From Gammaproteobacteria bacterium (lineage in GTDB: Bacteria > Pseudomonadota > Gammaproteobacteria > SpSt-1174): a stretch of 45,337 bases of DNA. Below the pieces are notes generated by a model. It did not search any database. It was given only the letters and a program-made list of their open reading frames with translations, and was not told the DNA's origin. How positions within the stretch are numbered: the stretch's first letter is position 1; every line of letters starts with the position of its first letter. Both the position numbers and the translations under genes were made by a program. Shown one piece after another: positions 3,274-45,337 of the stretch. The stretch lies in the NCBI GenBank assembly GCA_037388465.1, contig JARRKE010000010.1:1-45337 (forward strand), given 5' to 3'.

Positions 3274-4397
3274 AGCGGGCCATGATCGTCGCCGGAGAGG
3301 CCTCCGGCGACCTGCACGCGGCGAACCTGGTCCGCGAGCTGTACCGGCTCAATCCCGCCGTGCACGTCTACGGTATGGGCGGCGGCCAGCTGCGCGCCGC
3401 CGGCGCCAAGATCCTGATCGACTCCACCAAGCTCGCCGTGGTCGGGCTGTGGGAGGTGTTGGCCCATTACCGCGAAATCAAGCAGGTGCTGGGCCAGCTG
3501 CAGTCCTCCCTGCGCGACGATCCCCCCGACCTGCTGATCCTGGTCGATTACGCCGAGTTCAACCTCAAGCTCGCCAAGACGGCGCGTGAGCTCGGTATCA
3601 AGGTGTTCTTCTATATCAGCCCCCAGGTGTGGGCCTGGCGCGAAAAGCGTGTCCGCAAGATCAAGGAGCGGGTCGACCTCATGGGCGTGCTGTTCCCGTT
3701 CGAGGCCGATTTCTACCGCAAGCACGATGTGCCGGTGGAATACGTCGGCCATCCGCTGATCGATCACGTCGAGGCGGGGCTGAGCCCGCAGGCCACGCGC
3801 GAGATGCTGGGCCTGGACGCCGACGAGCCCGTCGTCGCCCTGCTGCCCGGTTCGCGCAAAAGCGAGATCTCGCGCCTGATGCCGCTGATGAACGCGGCGG
3901 TGGCGCATATCGGTAAGGAAGATCCGCGGTGCCGGTTCGTATTGCCGATCGCGCCCGGGCTGGAACGCGAGCTCATCGTGTCGCACCTGGAGGACCCGGA
4001 GCGGGTCGTTCTGGTGGAGGGGCACGCCTATGACGTGATGCAGATCGCGCGCGCCGCCATCGTGGCATCGGGAACGGCCACCCTGGAATGCGCCCTGATG
4101 GGCACGCCGATGGCTATCGTCTACCGGGTGGCGCCGCTCAGCTATTTCCTGTTCAAGCGGCTGATCCGCATCCCCTTCGTGGGGCTGGTGAACGTGATCG
4201 GCGGACGGGAGATGGCGGCCGAGTTCATACAGGACCGGGCCACGGCCGGGAACGTGGGCAGCGAGGTGTTGAGACTGCTGCGCGACGAGTCATATCACGC
4301 CGAGCGCCGTGCCCTGCTGCAGGAGGTGCGTGAGCGTCTGGGCAGCGGTGGAGGGGCCCGCAACGCGGCGGCGGCCGCGCTGAGCCTGCTGACCTAA
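3270..4397 (+). CDS. lpxB: Lipid-A-disaccharide synthase
   Basis: LpxB condenses UDP-2,3-diacyl-glucosamine with lipid X to form the lipid A disaccharide at the inner face of the cytoplasmic membrane (GT19 family). The GEASGD motif is at residues 9-14. Also visible are FYISPQVWAWREKRVRKI, VEYVGHPLIDH, LLPGSRKSEI and SGTATLECALMGTPMAIVYR, all expected of the family, and the length (375 aa) is normal. The start is GTG inside the stop of the preceding aminotransferase (GTGA overlap); an ATG at 3282 would also leave the domain intact. It is convergent with lpxA with only 12 bases between stop codons and no terminator. The usual lpxA-lpxB-rnhB order is broken because lpxB points the other way. Confidence 0.95.
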   Translation: MKRAMIVAGEASGDLHAANLVRELYRLNPAVHVYGMGGGQLRAAGAKILIDSTKLAVVGLWEVLAHYREIKQVLGQLQSSLRDDPPDLLILVDYAEFNLKLAKTARELGIKVFFYISPQVWAWREKRVRKIKERVDLMGVLFPFEADFYRKHDVPVEYVGHPLIDHVEAGLSPQATREMLGLDADEPVVALLPGSRKSEISRLMPLMNAAVAHIGKEDPRCRFVLPIAPGLERELIVSHLEDPERVVLVEGHAYDVMQIARAAIVASGTATLECALMGTPMAIVYRVAPLSYFLFKRLIRIPFVGLVNVIGGREMAAEFIQDRATAGNVGSEVLRLLRDESYHAERRALLQEVRERLGSGGGARNAAAAALSLLT

Positions 4398-4409
4398 CAG
4401 GTTGTCGTT

Positions 4410-5177
4410 TTAACGGATTACTCCGCGGTTGCTAGTCAGCACGAAGTCGCGCAACTGCCCCACTTCCGGATATTTCGCGGCGTCTTCCTGCACCGCCTCC
4501 AGGGCCTCGGCCCGGTCGGTACAGCGGATCAGCGTCTTGAAGGCGCGGCGCAGGGCCTGGATGGTTTCCGGGGTGAAACCGCGCCGCTTGAGCCCTTCCT
4601 TGTTGATGCCTACCGCATGCGCGTAGTTGCCTGACGCCATGGTGTAAGGCGTCAGGTCGCGGTTCAGGGCGGAGCCCATGCCGGTAAAGGCATGCGCGCC
4701 GATGCGGCAGAACTGGTGGACCAGGGTGAAGCCGCTGAGGATGACGTGATCCTCGACCACCACGTGCCCGGCCAGGGACGAGGCGTTGGAGAAGATCACG
4801 TTGTTGCCCACCTCGCAGTCGTGAGCCACGTGCACGTAGGCCATCAACAGGTTGTTGCTGCCGATGGTGGTCTTGCCGTGGCCTTTGGTCGTGCCGCGAT
4901 GCAGGGTCACGAATTCGCGGATGACGTTGTTGTCCCCGATGACCAGCTGCGTGTCCTCGCCGCGGTATTTGAGGTCCTGCGGTTCCTCGCCCACCGACGC
5001 GAACTGGAATATCCGGTTGTTCTCGCCGATGTGCGTCGGCCCCTTGATGGAGACATGCGGGCCGATCTCGCAGCCCTTGCCGACGGTGACACCCGGTCCA
5101 ATGATGCTGTATGCGCCGACCGATACGTCTTCTGCAAGCTCGGCGGCTGGATCGATGATCGCCGTCGGGTGAATCAC
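4410..5177 (-). CDS. lpxA: Acyl-ACP--UDP-N-acetylglucosamine O-acyltransferase (LpxA)
   Basis: LpxA performs the first acylation of lipid A, moving a 3-hydroxyacyl chain from ACP to position 3 of UDP-GlcNAc (or to the 3-amino group of UDP-GlcNAc3N). It is a left-handed beta-helix of hexapeptide repeats, 255 aa, ending in the helical LKRRGF...RGVIR region. The catalytic His in HVAHDCEVG is His119 (equivalent to E. coli His125). The start is GTG at 5177, overlapping the fabZ stop as GTGA; this gives the family N-terminus VIHPTAI. By hand alignment, the residue matching E. coli Gly173, the end of the hydrocarbon ruler, is Met167 (sequence HAFTGMGSA), as in the Pseudomonas C10-selective enzyme. 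With GnnA/GnnB-like genes nearby, it may accept an amino-sugar acceptor. Confidence 0.95.
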
Positions 5178-41612: not shown

Positions 41613-41665
41613 AATAAAATCAACCGGTTATCCGGTCTATAACATGACTTTGAGCGAAACGCTCA
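41613..41665 (-). terminator. Weak hairpins after kup
   Basis: The kup stop codon itself begins a hairpin on the minus strand (TGAGCG-TTT-CGCTCA, 41665-41651) without a T run. About fifteen bases on lies ACCGG-ATAA-CCGGT (41636-41623), followed by TGATTTTATTG, a T-rich tail. The second may be a weak intrinsic terminator; it may also form part of the pyrG control region. Confidence 0.4.
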
Positions 41666-43597
41666 GATTTCCATGCGAATGCCGAGCTCGACCGACCGGC
41701 CCGTCGGCAAATGATAAAACTCCGTCGCCCGCTGCGCGTTGCGCGCCATGACGGCATAGAGGCGTTTGCGCCAGGTGGGCATCTCCTCACCCTCCCCGGT
41801 CACCACGTAGGTGGAACGATCGGAGTAAAACACCGTGGTCTCCGCCTCCAGGCCGGGAATCAGGTTCTGATCCTGGCACAGCTTCATGGCCACCGAGACG
41901 TTCGGGCTCTGCATGAAGCCGTAATAGACATAGAGACGGTAAAACCCGTGGCGCAGCGGCTGGACTTCCAGGCGACCGCTTGCCGGCACGCTGGGGATGT
42001 TTTCGTTGATGACGGTCAGCAGAATCACCCGCTCATGCAGCATCTGATTGAGCTTGAGGTGATGCAGCAGACCGCTGGAAACATGATTGCCTCTCGGGGT
42101 GAGAAACACGGCCGTGCCGGGCACCCGCTGCGGGTGCCCCTGCTCGAAACTGGCCAGGAAGGCATCGATCGGCATGGTCCGACTGCTGCCGCGCCCTTCC
42201 ACCAGCCGGCGCCCGCCCGCCCAGGTCGACATCAGCAACAGCACCAGACCGCCGATCACCAGCGGGAACCAGCCGCCCTCGATAATCTTGAACAGGTTCG
42301 CCCCGAGGAAGGCCAGGTCGACCGTCAGGAACCCGGCGACGACCAGCAAGGCCAGTGCCGGTGACCAGCGCCAGCGCCGGCGCATGACGAAATACGCCAG
42401 GATGGTGGTGATCACCATCGTGGTGCTGACCGCCACGCCGTATGCGCCCGCCAGGTTGCTGGAGGAACCGAAACCGACCACCAGGGATACGGTGGCCACC
42501 AGCAGGGCCCAATTGACGAAGGGCACATAGATCTGCCCCATCTCTTGTGACGAGGTCTGGATGATCTCGATGGGCGGCGACTGCCCCATCTGCACCGCCT
42601 GGCGGGTCAGGGAAAAGGTGCCGGAAATCACGGCCTGCGAGGCGATCACGGTGGTCACGGTGGCCAGGCCGATCATGGGATAGACCGCCCAGTGCGGCAC
42701 CAGGTTGTAAAACGGATGATGGACCAGGACGGGATGGTCGAGGATCAACGCCCCCTGACCGAAATAGTTCAGCAGCAACGCGGGCAGCACCAGCCCGAAC
42801 CAGGCCAGGCGTATCGGCCTGCGGCCGAAATGCCCCATATCGGCGTACAGCGCTTCGCCGCCGGTGACCACCAGAAACACACCGCCCAGCACCAGATACG
42901 AGGTGGGCGGATTGTCCAGAAAGAAGCGAACGGCATAAACGGGGTTGATGGCCGTCAGCACATGCGGATTGTGCAGGATGCCGTGCACACCCAGCACGGC
43001 CAGGACCACGAACCACAGCAACATGATGGGACCGAACACGGAACCGATGCGCTGGGTGCCGTGCTTCTGGCCCGCGAACAGCAGCACCAGAATCACGATG
43101 GTCAGCGGAATCACGAATTCATGCAGACGGGGCTCGGCGACCTTCAGCCCCTCCACCGCGCTCATCACCGAAATCGCCGGCGTGATCATGCCGTCGCCAT
43201 AGAGCAACGCTGCGCCGAACACCCCCATCAGCAGCAGGACGGACGCGCCTTTGGTCTCCCGCGAACGCCCGCGGCGCAGCAAAGCGATCAGGGCGAGGAT
43301 GCCGCCTTCCCCCCGGTTGTCGGCCCGCATCACGAAGATCAGATACTTGACCGAGATAACGATGATCAACGCCCAGAAAATGAGCGACAGGACCCCGAGC
43401 ACGTTGGCGTTGGTAATGGCCACGCCGCCGCTGCCCATAAAGCACTCGCGCAGTGCGTACAACGGGCTGGTGCCGATATCGCCATAGACGATGCCGAGCG
43501 CCGTCAGACTCAGGGGGAGTACCGACTTGTGGGGGCGGGCCGGTTCGGCCGAGGCGGCCCTGCTGCGGCCGGTCGAATTGAATGGTGTGTCACTCAC
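41663..43597 (-). CDS. kup: Kup-family low-affinity potassium transporter
   Basis: Kup imports K+ with protons across the inner membrane. The 644 aa protein opens its core with LSLTALGIVYGDIGTSPLYALRECF, the family hallmark, and has about 12 transmembrane helices up to residue 450. A cytoplasmic domain of about 190 residues follows and ends VELGIRMEI. RADNRGEGGILALIALL and GDGMITPAISVMSAVEGL are further conserved blocks. The ATG at 43597 lacks a strong ribosome-binding site. It is a single gene, divergent from the protease gene at 43765. Confidence 0.95.
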   Translation of the reverse strand: MSDTPFNSTGRSRAASAEPARPHKSVLPLSLTALGIVYGDIGTSPLYALRECFMGSGGVAITNANVLGVLSLIFWALIIVISVKYLIFVMRADNRGEGGILALIALLRRGRSRETKGASVLLLMGVFGAALLYGDGMITPAISVMSAVEGLKVAEPRLHEFVIPLTIVILVLLFAGQKHGTQRIGSVFGPIMLLWFVVLAVLGVHGILHNPHVLTAINPVYAVRFFLDNPPTSYLVLGGVFLVVTGGEALYADMGHFGRRPIRLAWFGLVLPALLLNYFGQGALILDHPVLVHHPFYNLVPHWAVYPMIGLATVTTVIASQAVISGTFSLTRQAVQMGQSPPIEIIQTSSQEMGQIYVPFVNWALLVATVSLVVGFGSSSNLAGAYGVAVSTTMVITTILAYFVMRRRWRWSPALALLVVAGFLTVDLAFLGANLFKIIEGGWFPLVIGGLVLLLMSTWAGGRRLVEGRGSSRTMPIDAFLASFEQGHPQRVPGTAVFLTPRGNHVSSGLLHHLKLNQMLHERVILLTVINENIPSVPASGRLEVQPLRHGFYRLYVYYGFMQSPNVSVAMKLCQDQNLIPGLEAETTVFYSDRSTYVVTGEGEEMPTWRKRLYAVMARNAQRATEFYHLPTGRSVELGIRMEI

Positions 43598-43764: not shown

Positions 43765-44268
43765 ATGCCCCCGTCCCGCATCCCTGCCTGGCTGCTGCTG
43801 TTCATGCTCGCGGTTTACGCCCCACCCTTATGGGCCAAGACAGTGGTCGGCTGGGTCGAGCGCGCCAAGGTTTTTTATAACGCCCACACCCTGGAACTGC
43901 ACGCGAAGATCGACTCCGGCGCCAAGACCTCGTCGCTGAATGCCGACAACCTGGTGCGTTTCGAGAAAGACGGCAAGCCATGGGTGCGCTTTGAAGTGGT
44001 CGATGCGCAGGGGGAGCACGTGGTGGTCGAACGGCCGCTGCTGCGCACCGCGAAGGTACGCCGGCACTTCGGCGACACCCAGGTGCGCCCGGTCATCGAA
44101 CTGGGGCTGTGCCTGGGCGACATCTATGAAGTGACGCAGTTCACCCTCGTCGACCGGACCGGGTTCAACTATCCCCTGCTCGTCGGCCGCCGCTATCTCG
44201 ACGGCCACTTTCTTATCGATCCCGGCCGCACGCATTTGTCCAAACCCGCCTGCACGCCGGGCAAGTAA
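43765..44268 (+). CDS. Exported retropepsin-like (Zn_protease/PF05618-type) protein
   Basis: A 167 aa protein with a hydrophobic signal sequence (MPPSRIPAWLLLFMLAVYAPPLWA) then a compact domain. KIDSGAKTSSLNADNL carries the DSGA-type active-site Asp of retropepsin-like proteases, and LVGRRYLDGHFLIDPGRT closes the fold. The family was once labelled an 'ATP-dependent zinc protease' and includes RimB-type proteins near ATP-grasp ligases. ATG 43765 was chosen for its GAGG site and for starting the signal peptide; upstream in-frame codons read from inside kup. It overlaps the following gene (TAATG). With that gene it forms the start of a conserved group usually completed by an ATP-grasp ligase, probably beyond the window. 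Confidence 0.85.
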   Translation: MPPSRIPAWLLLFMLAVYAPPLWAKTVVGWVERAKVFYNAHTLELHAKIDSGAKTSSLNADNLVRFEKDGKPWVRFEVVDAQGEHVVVERPLLRTAKVRRHFGDTQVRPVIELGLCLGDIYEVTQFTLVDRTGFNYPLLVGRRYLDGHFLIDPGRTHLSKPACTPGK

Positions 44269-45337
44269 TGAACCAGCGGCACCTCTACATTCTCGTCACG
44301 CTGCTTTGCGCGATTGGCGGCGGACTGTTCCTGTACAAGCATTTCATCCTGGGCTTTCCGCTTTCCCCCGAAACCACCGAGCAAACCTGGCAATACGAGG
44401 TACGTATCCGTTTCGACGGCACCGGCGAGGCGGCCAAGATCAGCCTGCACATCCCCACCGGCAACCGATCCCTGGCGGTGCTGGGCGAGGATTTTTTCTC
44501 CGGTCGTTTCGGCCTGGGAACGGCGCGGGATACGGACGGTAACCGCGTCGCGCTGTGGACCATCCGCACCGCGAAGGGCCGGCAGACGCTGTTTTACCGG
44601 GCCACGCTGCAGCGCCAGGCGAATCGCGAAAGCGCCACGACGACCGCGCCGTCCTCCCCTCCCGCCGTACAGGCGCCCGATTTTTCCGATAGCGAAGCCA
44701 AGGCCGCGCAGGCCCTGATGGACCAGGTTCGCGCCCGCTCGGCAGATGCGACGACGCTGGTCACGCAGCTCCTGACGCTGCTGGCGAAACCGGGGCCGGA
44801 AACCGCGCTGTTGATCAAACCGCGCGACACGGACGAAACCAGGCTCGACATGGCGGCCCGGCTGCTCGCCCTGGCGGGCCTGCCCGCGCGCGTCGCGCAC
44901 GGCATCGAACTCTCCTCCCAGAACGCGCAGCCGAAAATCCACGCCTGGCTGGAAGTCTTCATGGGCCGCAGCTGGCAGCTGTTCGACCTGGCCACGCAGC
45001 AGCGGGTCTCGCGCTCGCAGGTGCTGGTCATCTGGCGCGGCGCGGGCGGAATCGCGTCCCTGCGCGGCGGCGAACGCCTCGATACCCGCGTGACGCTGAC
45101 GCCCGGCTCGGAACTCGCCACGCGCATGCTGTACCGCCAGGCCGGTTCGGCGGGGCACTGGCTGCTCGGATTCTCACTGCTCGGCCTGCCCCTGGAGACG
45201 CAGCAGGTTTACCGGGTGCTGCTCACGGTGCCGCTCGGTGTACTGGTGCTGGTGCTGCTGCGCAACCTCGTCGGCATCAAGACCTTCGGCACCTTCATGC
45301 CGGTCCTGGTCGCCCTGGCCTTTCGCCAGACCGAACT
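44268..45337 (+). CDS. Inactive-transglutaminase / 7TM protein, 3' end cut by window edge
   Basis: The ATG overlaps the upstream stop (TAATG), and about 356 codons are visible before the edge. After one N-terminal transmembrane helix (residues 7-30) comes a periplasmic part whose transglutaminase-like section (about 150-250) reads RLDMAARLLALAGLPARVAHGIEL...KIHAWLEVFMGRSWQLFDLAT. The His and Asp positions remain (HAWLEVF, LFDLAT), but no Cys occupies the expected nucleophile position. This matches the Pfam description 'inactive transglutaminase fused to 7 transmembrane helices'. Then LPLETQQVYRVLLTVPLGVLVLVLLRNLVGIKTFGTFMPVLVALAFR begins the 7TM domain, which is cut off. Domain names are from memory; the fit is good. 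Confidence 0.88.
   Translation, partial: MNQRHLYILVTLLCAIGGGLFLYKHFILGFPLSPETTEQTWQYEVRIRFDGTGEAAKISLHIPTGNRSLAVLGEDFFSGRFGLGTARDTDGNRVALWTIRTAKGRQTLFYRATLQRQANRESATTTAPSSPPAVQAPDFSDSEAKAAQALMDQVRARSADATTLVTQLLTLLAKPGPETALLIKPRDTDETRLDMAARLLALAGLPARVAHGIELSSQNAQPKIHAWLEVFMGRSWQLFDLATQQRVSRSQVLVIWRGAGGIASLRGGERLDTRVTLTPGSELATRMLYRQAGSAGHWLLGFSLLGLPLETQQVYRVLLTVPLGVLVLVLLRNLVGIKTFGTFMPVLVALAFRQTE

Follow-up and report, generated by a model that had tools for sequence, protein, structure and literature searches.

The last 1.6 kb of the window (by which we mean the whole stretch of 45,337 nucleotides that was analysed, identical to contig C10 of a gammaproteobacterial draft assembly of 151 contigs and 2.79 Mb) carry two overlapping plus-strand genes, and the question that they raise is to which system they belong and what that system does. 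An earlier note, made from the letters alone, placed them at the edge of a little-studied system, in which an exported DSGA-type protease would be coupled to a membrane protein with an inactive transglutaminase-like domain, and proposed looking for an ATP-grasp ligase beyond position 45337. The contig ends at that position, and this truncation is an assembly break; consequently, an ATP-grasp gene cannot be seen in the window. We conclude that the known rloABC operon begins in the window, which holds one and a half of its genes before the contig ends, and the system can no longer be called little-studied, as a crystal structure of RloA and a deletion of the operon were reported in 2025 (PMC12239564).

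In P. aeruginosa, rloABC has been described as encoding a protease, a transglutaminase-7TM protein lacking the Cys and an ATP-grasp protein (PMC12239564). The RloA proteins are dimeric retropepsins that cleave poly-glutamate, and the loss of all three P. aeruginosa copies prevents growth in low salt and also disturbs cell shape, biofilm formation and antibiotic resistance (PMC12239564). Thus, the involvement in osmotic stress and the peptide removal that had been suggested from the letters are both on record for the P. aeruginosa operon. Losing rloB or rloC relieves these defects wholly or partly (PMC12239564), which indicates that RloB and RloC make something that RloA must handle. In Pseudomonas, resistance to cell-wall antibiotics also requires the rlo operon. 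RimK, a relative of RloC, is known to make poly-alpha-L-glutamate (PMC11957791). Our literature search found no paper stating the product of RloC or the role of RloB.

The first gene of the pair, rloA (43765-44268, plus strand), is preceded by a GAGG located 8 bases 5′ of its ATG and codes for a secreted retropepsin-like aspartic peptidase of 167 residues (PF05618, 118.6 bits against a Pfam cut-off of 27, E = 2.5e-34; PDB 9g58, 1.9e-25). Its signal peptide, MPPSRIPAWLLLFMLAVYAPPLWA (24 residues, 43765-43836, cleavage after PLWA), was read by eye, and the active-site Asp50-Ser51-Gly52 (43912-43920) lies in the motif KIDSGAKT, with DSGA at residues 50-53, so that the exported DSGA-type protease of the earlier note stands. 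The closest solved structures are 9g58, 9g59 and 2pma; P. fluorescens RloA, P. aeruginosa RloA2 and a Legionella protein are the solved relatives (PMC12239564), the first two of which correspond, in our reading of that paper, to 9g58 and 9g59, respectively. In the alignment, K48, R94, R108 and R131 (43906-44157) match K46, R92, R114 and R137 of P. aeruginosa RloA, so all four of the poly-Glu contact residues given in PMC12239564 are present, and C116 and C163 (44110-44112 and 44251-44253) align with the disulfide cysteines of 9g58. The window protein differs from the Pseudomonas ones in its DSG, found in 6 of 77 aligned relatives, in place of DTG (71/77), and in the shorter spacing of the arginines flanking the flap (14 residues, where P. 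fluorescens RloA has 22), a feature common to most relatives. It also falls below the NCBIfam name cut-offs (120.7 against 210 bits for RloA3, 102.3 against 280 for RloA); these models appear to have been drawn around closer relatives of the Pseudomonas proteins, and consequently we file it as an RloA-family protein rather than a named orthologue.

Exactly two PF05618 genes were found in this genome, rloA and a rimB that lies beside rimK in a separate locus (C43, 9626-10881). The RimB-RimK system (PMC11957791) similarly combines a PF05618 peptidase with an ATP-grasp glutamate ligase, but its locus has no RloB, and RimB lacks both the signal peptide and the two cysteines at the disulfide positions. 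In fact, the mean hydropathy of the N-terminal hydrophobic 12-mer is 2.5 in the window RloA and -0.5 in the RimB of the same genome. The cytoplasmic target that the earlier note had allowed for is thus unlikely, given the signal peptide of the window protease and the presence of its cytoplasmic paralogue elsewhere.

The second gene, rloB, starts within the stop codon of the first, the TAA at 44266-44268 and the ATG at 44268-44270 having one base in common (TAATG), as the earlier note had read. Its 5′ two thirds (44268-45337, plus strand; 356 residues to the contig end) code for a transmembrane helix, a transglutaminase-like domain and the first helix of the membrane domain, and match PF14400 (2.1e-41), PF14402 (2.2e-26, the first 97 of 248 positions), PF01841 (7.3e-6) and, under its name cut-off, the NCBIfam RloB model (2.1e-62). 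The only Cys of the fragment, C14, lies in the first transmembrane helix, and the transglutaminase-like domain is therefore without Cys: in the remnant triad (44832-44987), no Cys occupies the nucleophile position (about residue 189), and His225 and Asp240 are kept. This agrees with the inactive transglutaminase of the earlier note, while its "7TM" comes by homology, since only the first membrane-domain helix is encoded before the contig ends. An AlphaFold2 model of a relative (L031) is consistent with seven transmembrane helices after the domain. The start of this conserved membrane domain (45054-45337) carries the motif GIKTFGTFMPVL, which, when 47 RloB proteins are aligned, is the stretch that varies least in the family. 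For the transglutaminase-like domain, the AlphaFold2 model comes close in fold to 3isr, a putative cysteine protease (E = 1e-10); for the membrane domain alone, the model had no match in the PDB below E 1.

The locus shares with rloABC of P. aeruginosa and P. fluorescens the gene order A-B, the signal peptide, the catalytic Asp, the poly-Glu contact residues, the disulfide cysteines, the Cys-less transglutaminase-like domain, the membrane domain and, through an inferred join with contig C121 that is discussed below, the ATP-grasp partner and hence the order A-B-C. The arrangement is also conserved. We read 90 loci (80 named and 10 from relatives), in all of which RloC follows next to RloB, downstream of it, and in 76 of which RloA is present. 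Similarly, among 281 gammaproteobacterial genomes, PF05618 occurs in 59 of the 63 that have RloB and in 75 of the 218 that lack it. The earlier note would have given up its proposal had there been no ATP-grasp partner and no conservation of the pair; a partner gene was found on C121, and the pair is widespread. The idea that rlo substitutes for osmoregulated periplasmic glucans was also considered and rejected, as OpgG (PF04349) is found both with RloB (17/63 genomes) and without it (31/218), which shows no mutual exclusion. In one relative of the same family (G002; L021, 4223-5135), the RloA match extends over two frames, 4223-5116 and 4956-5135, and this rloA may be broken or reflect an assembly error.

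A comparison of 103 aligned RloB proteins distinguishes three classes, each forming one clade in the RloB tree, so the pattern rests on few clades and few independent events. In seven of the 103 (class II: L029, L146 and L148-L152), a Cys is present at the nucleophile position of the transglutaminase-like domain, with His and Asp in place, and PF01841 gives the two members tested 60-63 bits, against 26.7 for the window RloB. RloA is found in none of the seven class II loci, whereas it accompanies 75 of the 88 distinct loci of class I, to which the window belongs. Three class II genomes (G083, G186 and G266) have no PF05618 at all, two (G106 and G174) have RimB only, and the other two (G264 and G035) have RloA beside a second, Cys-less RloB. 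The membrane domain of RloB and RloC, which is encoded directly downstream, are shared with the rlo system of the window, and in one case (L146, 4431-6989, on contig C24 of G174) RloB (residues 51-544) and RloC (562-841) are fused in a single 853-residue frame with an intact triad, which suggests that both proteins work as a unit. Class II loci differ from that of the window not only in the conserved Cys-His-Asp and the missing RloA but also in their additional genes. For instance, a periplasmic TPR protein anchored in the membrane by its N-terminus is encoded downstream in all seven, an outer-membrane barrel-like protein, assigned from its appearance and from one member's weak match to PF13505, follows it in six, and a TPR lipoprotein lies upstream in three; neither the barrel nor the TPR lipoprotein was found in any class I locus. 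This set looks arranged like a machine that exports a polymer across the whole envelope, by analogy with alginate-type systems.

A third class (L143-L145, L147 and L153) comprises divergent, Cys-less RloB proteins encoded near a secreted RloA and without an RloC of their own; the ATP-grasp proteins neighbouring L143 and L147 group with RimK. In an RloC tree with RimK as the outgroup, class II falls outside class I, so the intact triad would be ancestral, a weak conclusion given the long root branch. We found no paper on RloB classes in a literature search whose coverage did not extend to the 2009 amidoligase survey.

The presence of an intact triad in RloB proteins without RloA in their loci suggests that, in class I, RloA supplies the peptidase activity that RloB has lost, and, as class II is one clade, this swap may reflect a single event. 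RloA does not seem to be always needed in class I, however. Eleven class I loci belong to genomes without a secreted RloA: five with RimB only, all of them Lysobacterales with a Cys-less RloB and RloC (L077, L080, L100, L105 and L107), and six drafts with no PF05618. Likewise, G247 has a class I RloB and no PF05618, so that other peptidases, or tolerance, must exist. Upstream of rloB, inspection by eye of class I loci that lack RloA for a replacement protease revealed only housekeeping-type genes. Two of the Lysobacterales loci (L077 and L100) have a gyrase B-like gene upstream.

From these observations we infer the following model for the contig-cut rloABC operon, to which, taken whole, we give an even chance of being right. 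RloC, a cytoplasmic ATP-grasp ligase, would join glutamates, either as free poly-alpha-glutamate or onto a carrier, while bound to the cytoplasmic face of RloB, which would move the product across the inner membrane. In the periplasm, the dead transglutaminase-like domain of RloB would bind the product, and the secreted, dimeric RloA would cleave the glutamate chain and so avoid a build-up that, left unprocessed, would harm the envelope at low osmolarity. In class II, the RloB domain itself would trim the chain, a task that RloA would have taken over in class I. A broader version is more speculative and, in our opinion, rather unlikely as it stands: RloB-RloC might be a poly-glutamate-like synthase-exporter of many Gram-negatives, whose ancestor had its own transglutaminase-fold peptidase and an outer-membrane route to the surface, the latter suggested by the class II loci; in the class of the window, the domain would have died and RloA, borrowed from the RimB family and provided with a signal peptide, would have replaced it, with a periplasmic polymer of osmotic importance left as a result.

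The job proposed for RloB-RloC is the same as that of PgsB-PgsC, in which an amide ligase and a small polytopic membrane protein export polyglutamate that meets an external hydrolase, although PgsB is a Mur-type ligase and RloC belongs to the ATP-grasp proteins. A likeness in motifs led us to consider the RloB membrane domain as a homologue of PgsC (PF14102), a candidate that we did not retain: hmmscan at E 10 matched neither RloB members nor their consensus to PF14102, phmmer reached an E of 0.6 at best, and the hhalign score of 22.0 is suggestive only, being reached in 2 of 150 column shuffles matched for hydropathy, which were used as the null because a null set of membrane families from the locus flanks gave one family only. 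Separately, L129-L132 and L138 (G433, G350, G354, G441 and G544) encode proteins some 1085 residues long, in which two tandem CapC/PgsC domains (PF14102) are joined to an unassigned C-terminal part.

The alternative that survives best is that no polymer is exported, and that RloC glutamylates a specific envelope protein that RloB anchors or presents and from which RloA removes the tag. A modified protein is one of the two options considered in the 2025 paper, RloA cuts poly-Glu tagged proteins in vitro (PMC12239564), and there is a precedent in the action of RimK and RimB on the ribosomal protein S6 (PMC11957791). However, as the ligase is cytoplasmic and the peptidase periplasmic, the tagged protein must still cross the membrane, and the TPR and barrel genes of the class II loci fit export better, so we consider this explanation possible but on the unlikely side.

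It is less probable still, and we would be surprised to see it confirmed, that RloB is a receptor whose dead domain detects poly-Glu, or peptides of the cell wall, and passes a signal to RloC by way of the membrane domain. Dead enzyme domains are often binding modules, and the preservation of the transglutaminase-like domain as a fold, as predicted by the AlphaFold2 model resembling 3isr, would agree with such a role. By contrast, the most invariant residues of RloB are in the membrane domain rather than in the putative sensor, the domain appears, from its residues, to be catalytically intact in the sister class, and rloB loss rescues rloA loss as rloC loss does (PMC12239564), which fits a step in production.

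The model of synthesis, export and cleavage also assumes that the ATP-grasp gene expected by the earlier note is the one found on contig C121. PF14397 has a single strong match in the genome (8.4e-60), at the very end of C121 (position 10879), and the gene reads from the contig end inwards, as expected of the partner of rloB. Its 185-residue fragment scores 311 bits against positions 139-321 of 324 in an RloC profile built from related rlo loci, to which the RimK of the genome scores 34 bits. Judged by a relative of full length, RloB lacks about 156 residues and RloC 138, from which we estimate a gap of about 0.9 kb between C10 and C121. The two contigs are neither joined in the assembly nor spanned by a read, and the first 138 residues are absent from the fragment, as would also be seen if it belonged to a separate locus unrelated to the window rloB. 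This is very improbable, as the fragment is the only RloC-type gene of the genome, is cut exactly at a contig end in the expected orientation and groups with the class I, operon-borne RloC; its neighbours there, from Acidiferrobacterales, Ectothiorhodospiraceae and Nitrospirota, are of the same groups as those around the window RloB in its own tree. We thus take it as the 3′ half of the missing rloC.

Finally, that the divergent neighbour of rloA, kup (41663-43597, minus strand), provides the osmotic link as part of a potassium or osmolyte module is hardly credible, although the earlier note had seen its adjacency as fitting an osmotic theme. A Kup homologue was found in 0 of the 90 rlo loci, even when searched at E 10, which makes this neighbour incidental and the argument fail, and the osmotic phenotype of rlo, a hypo-osmotic one, has been mapped to the genes of the operon (PMC12239564).

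The earlier interpretation was thus partly supported and had already been largely answered by the 2025 paper (PMC12239564). The single RloA of this genome, compared with three in P. aeruginosa, means that the redundancy found in that species would not hide the effect of a knockout here. The part worth following is the class II relatives, which offer a new clue to the rlo system: together, the class with an intact triad and the RloB-RloC fusion predict that these proteins form a complex, that its product crosses the membrane and that the peptidase step may be provided by either of two unrelated enzymes.
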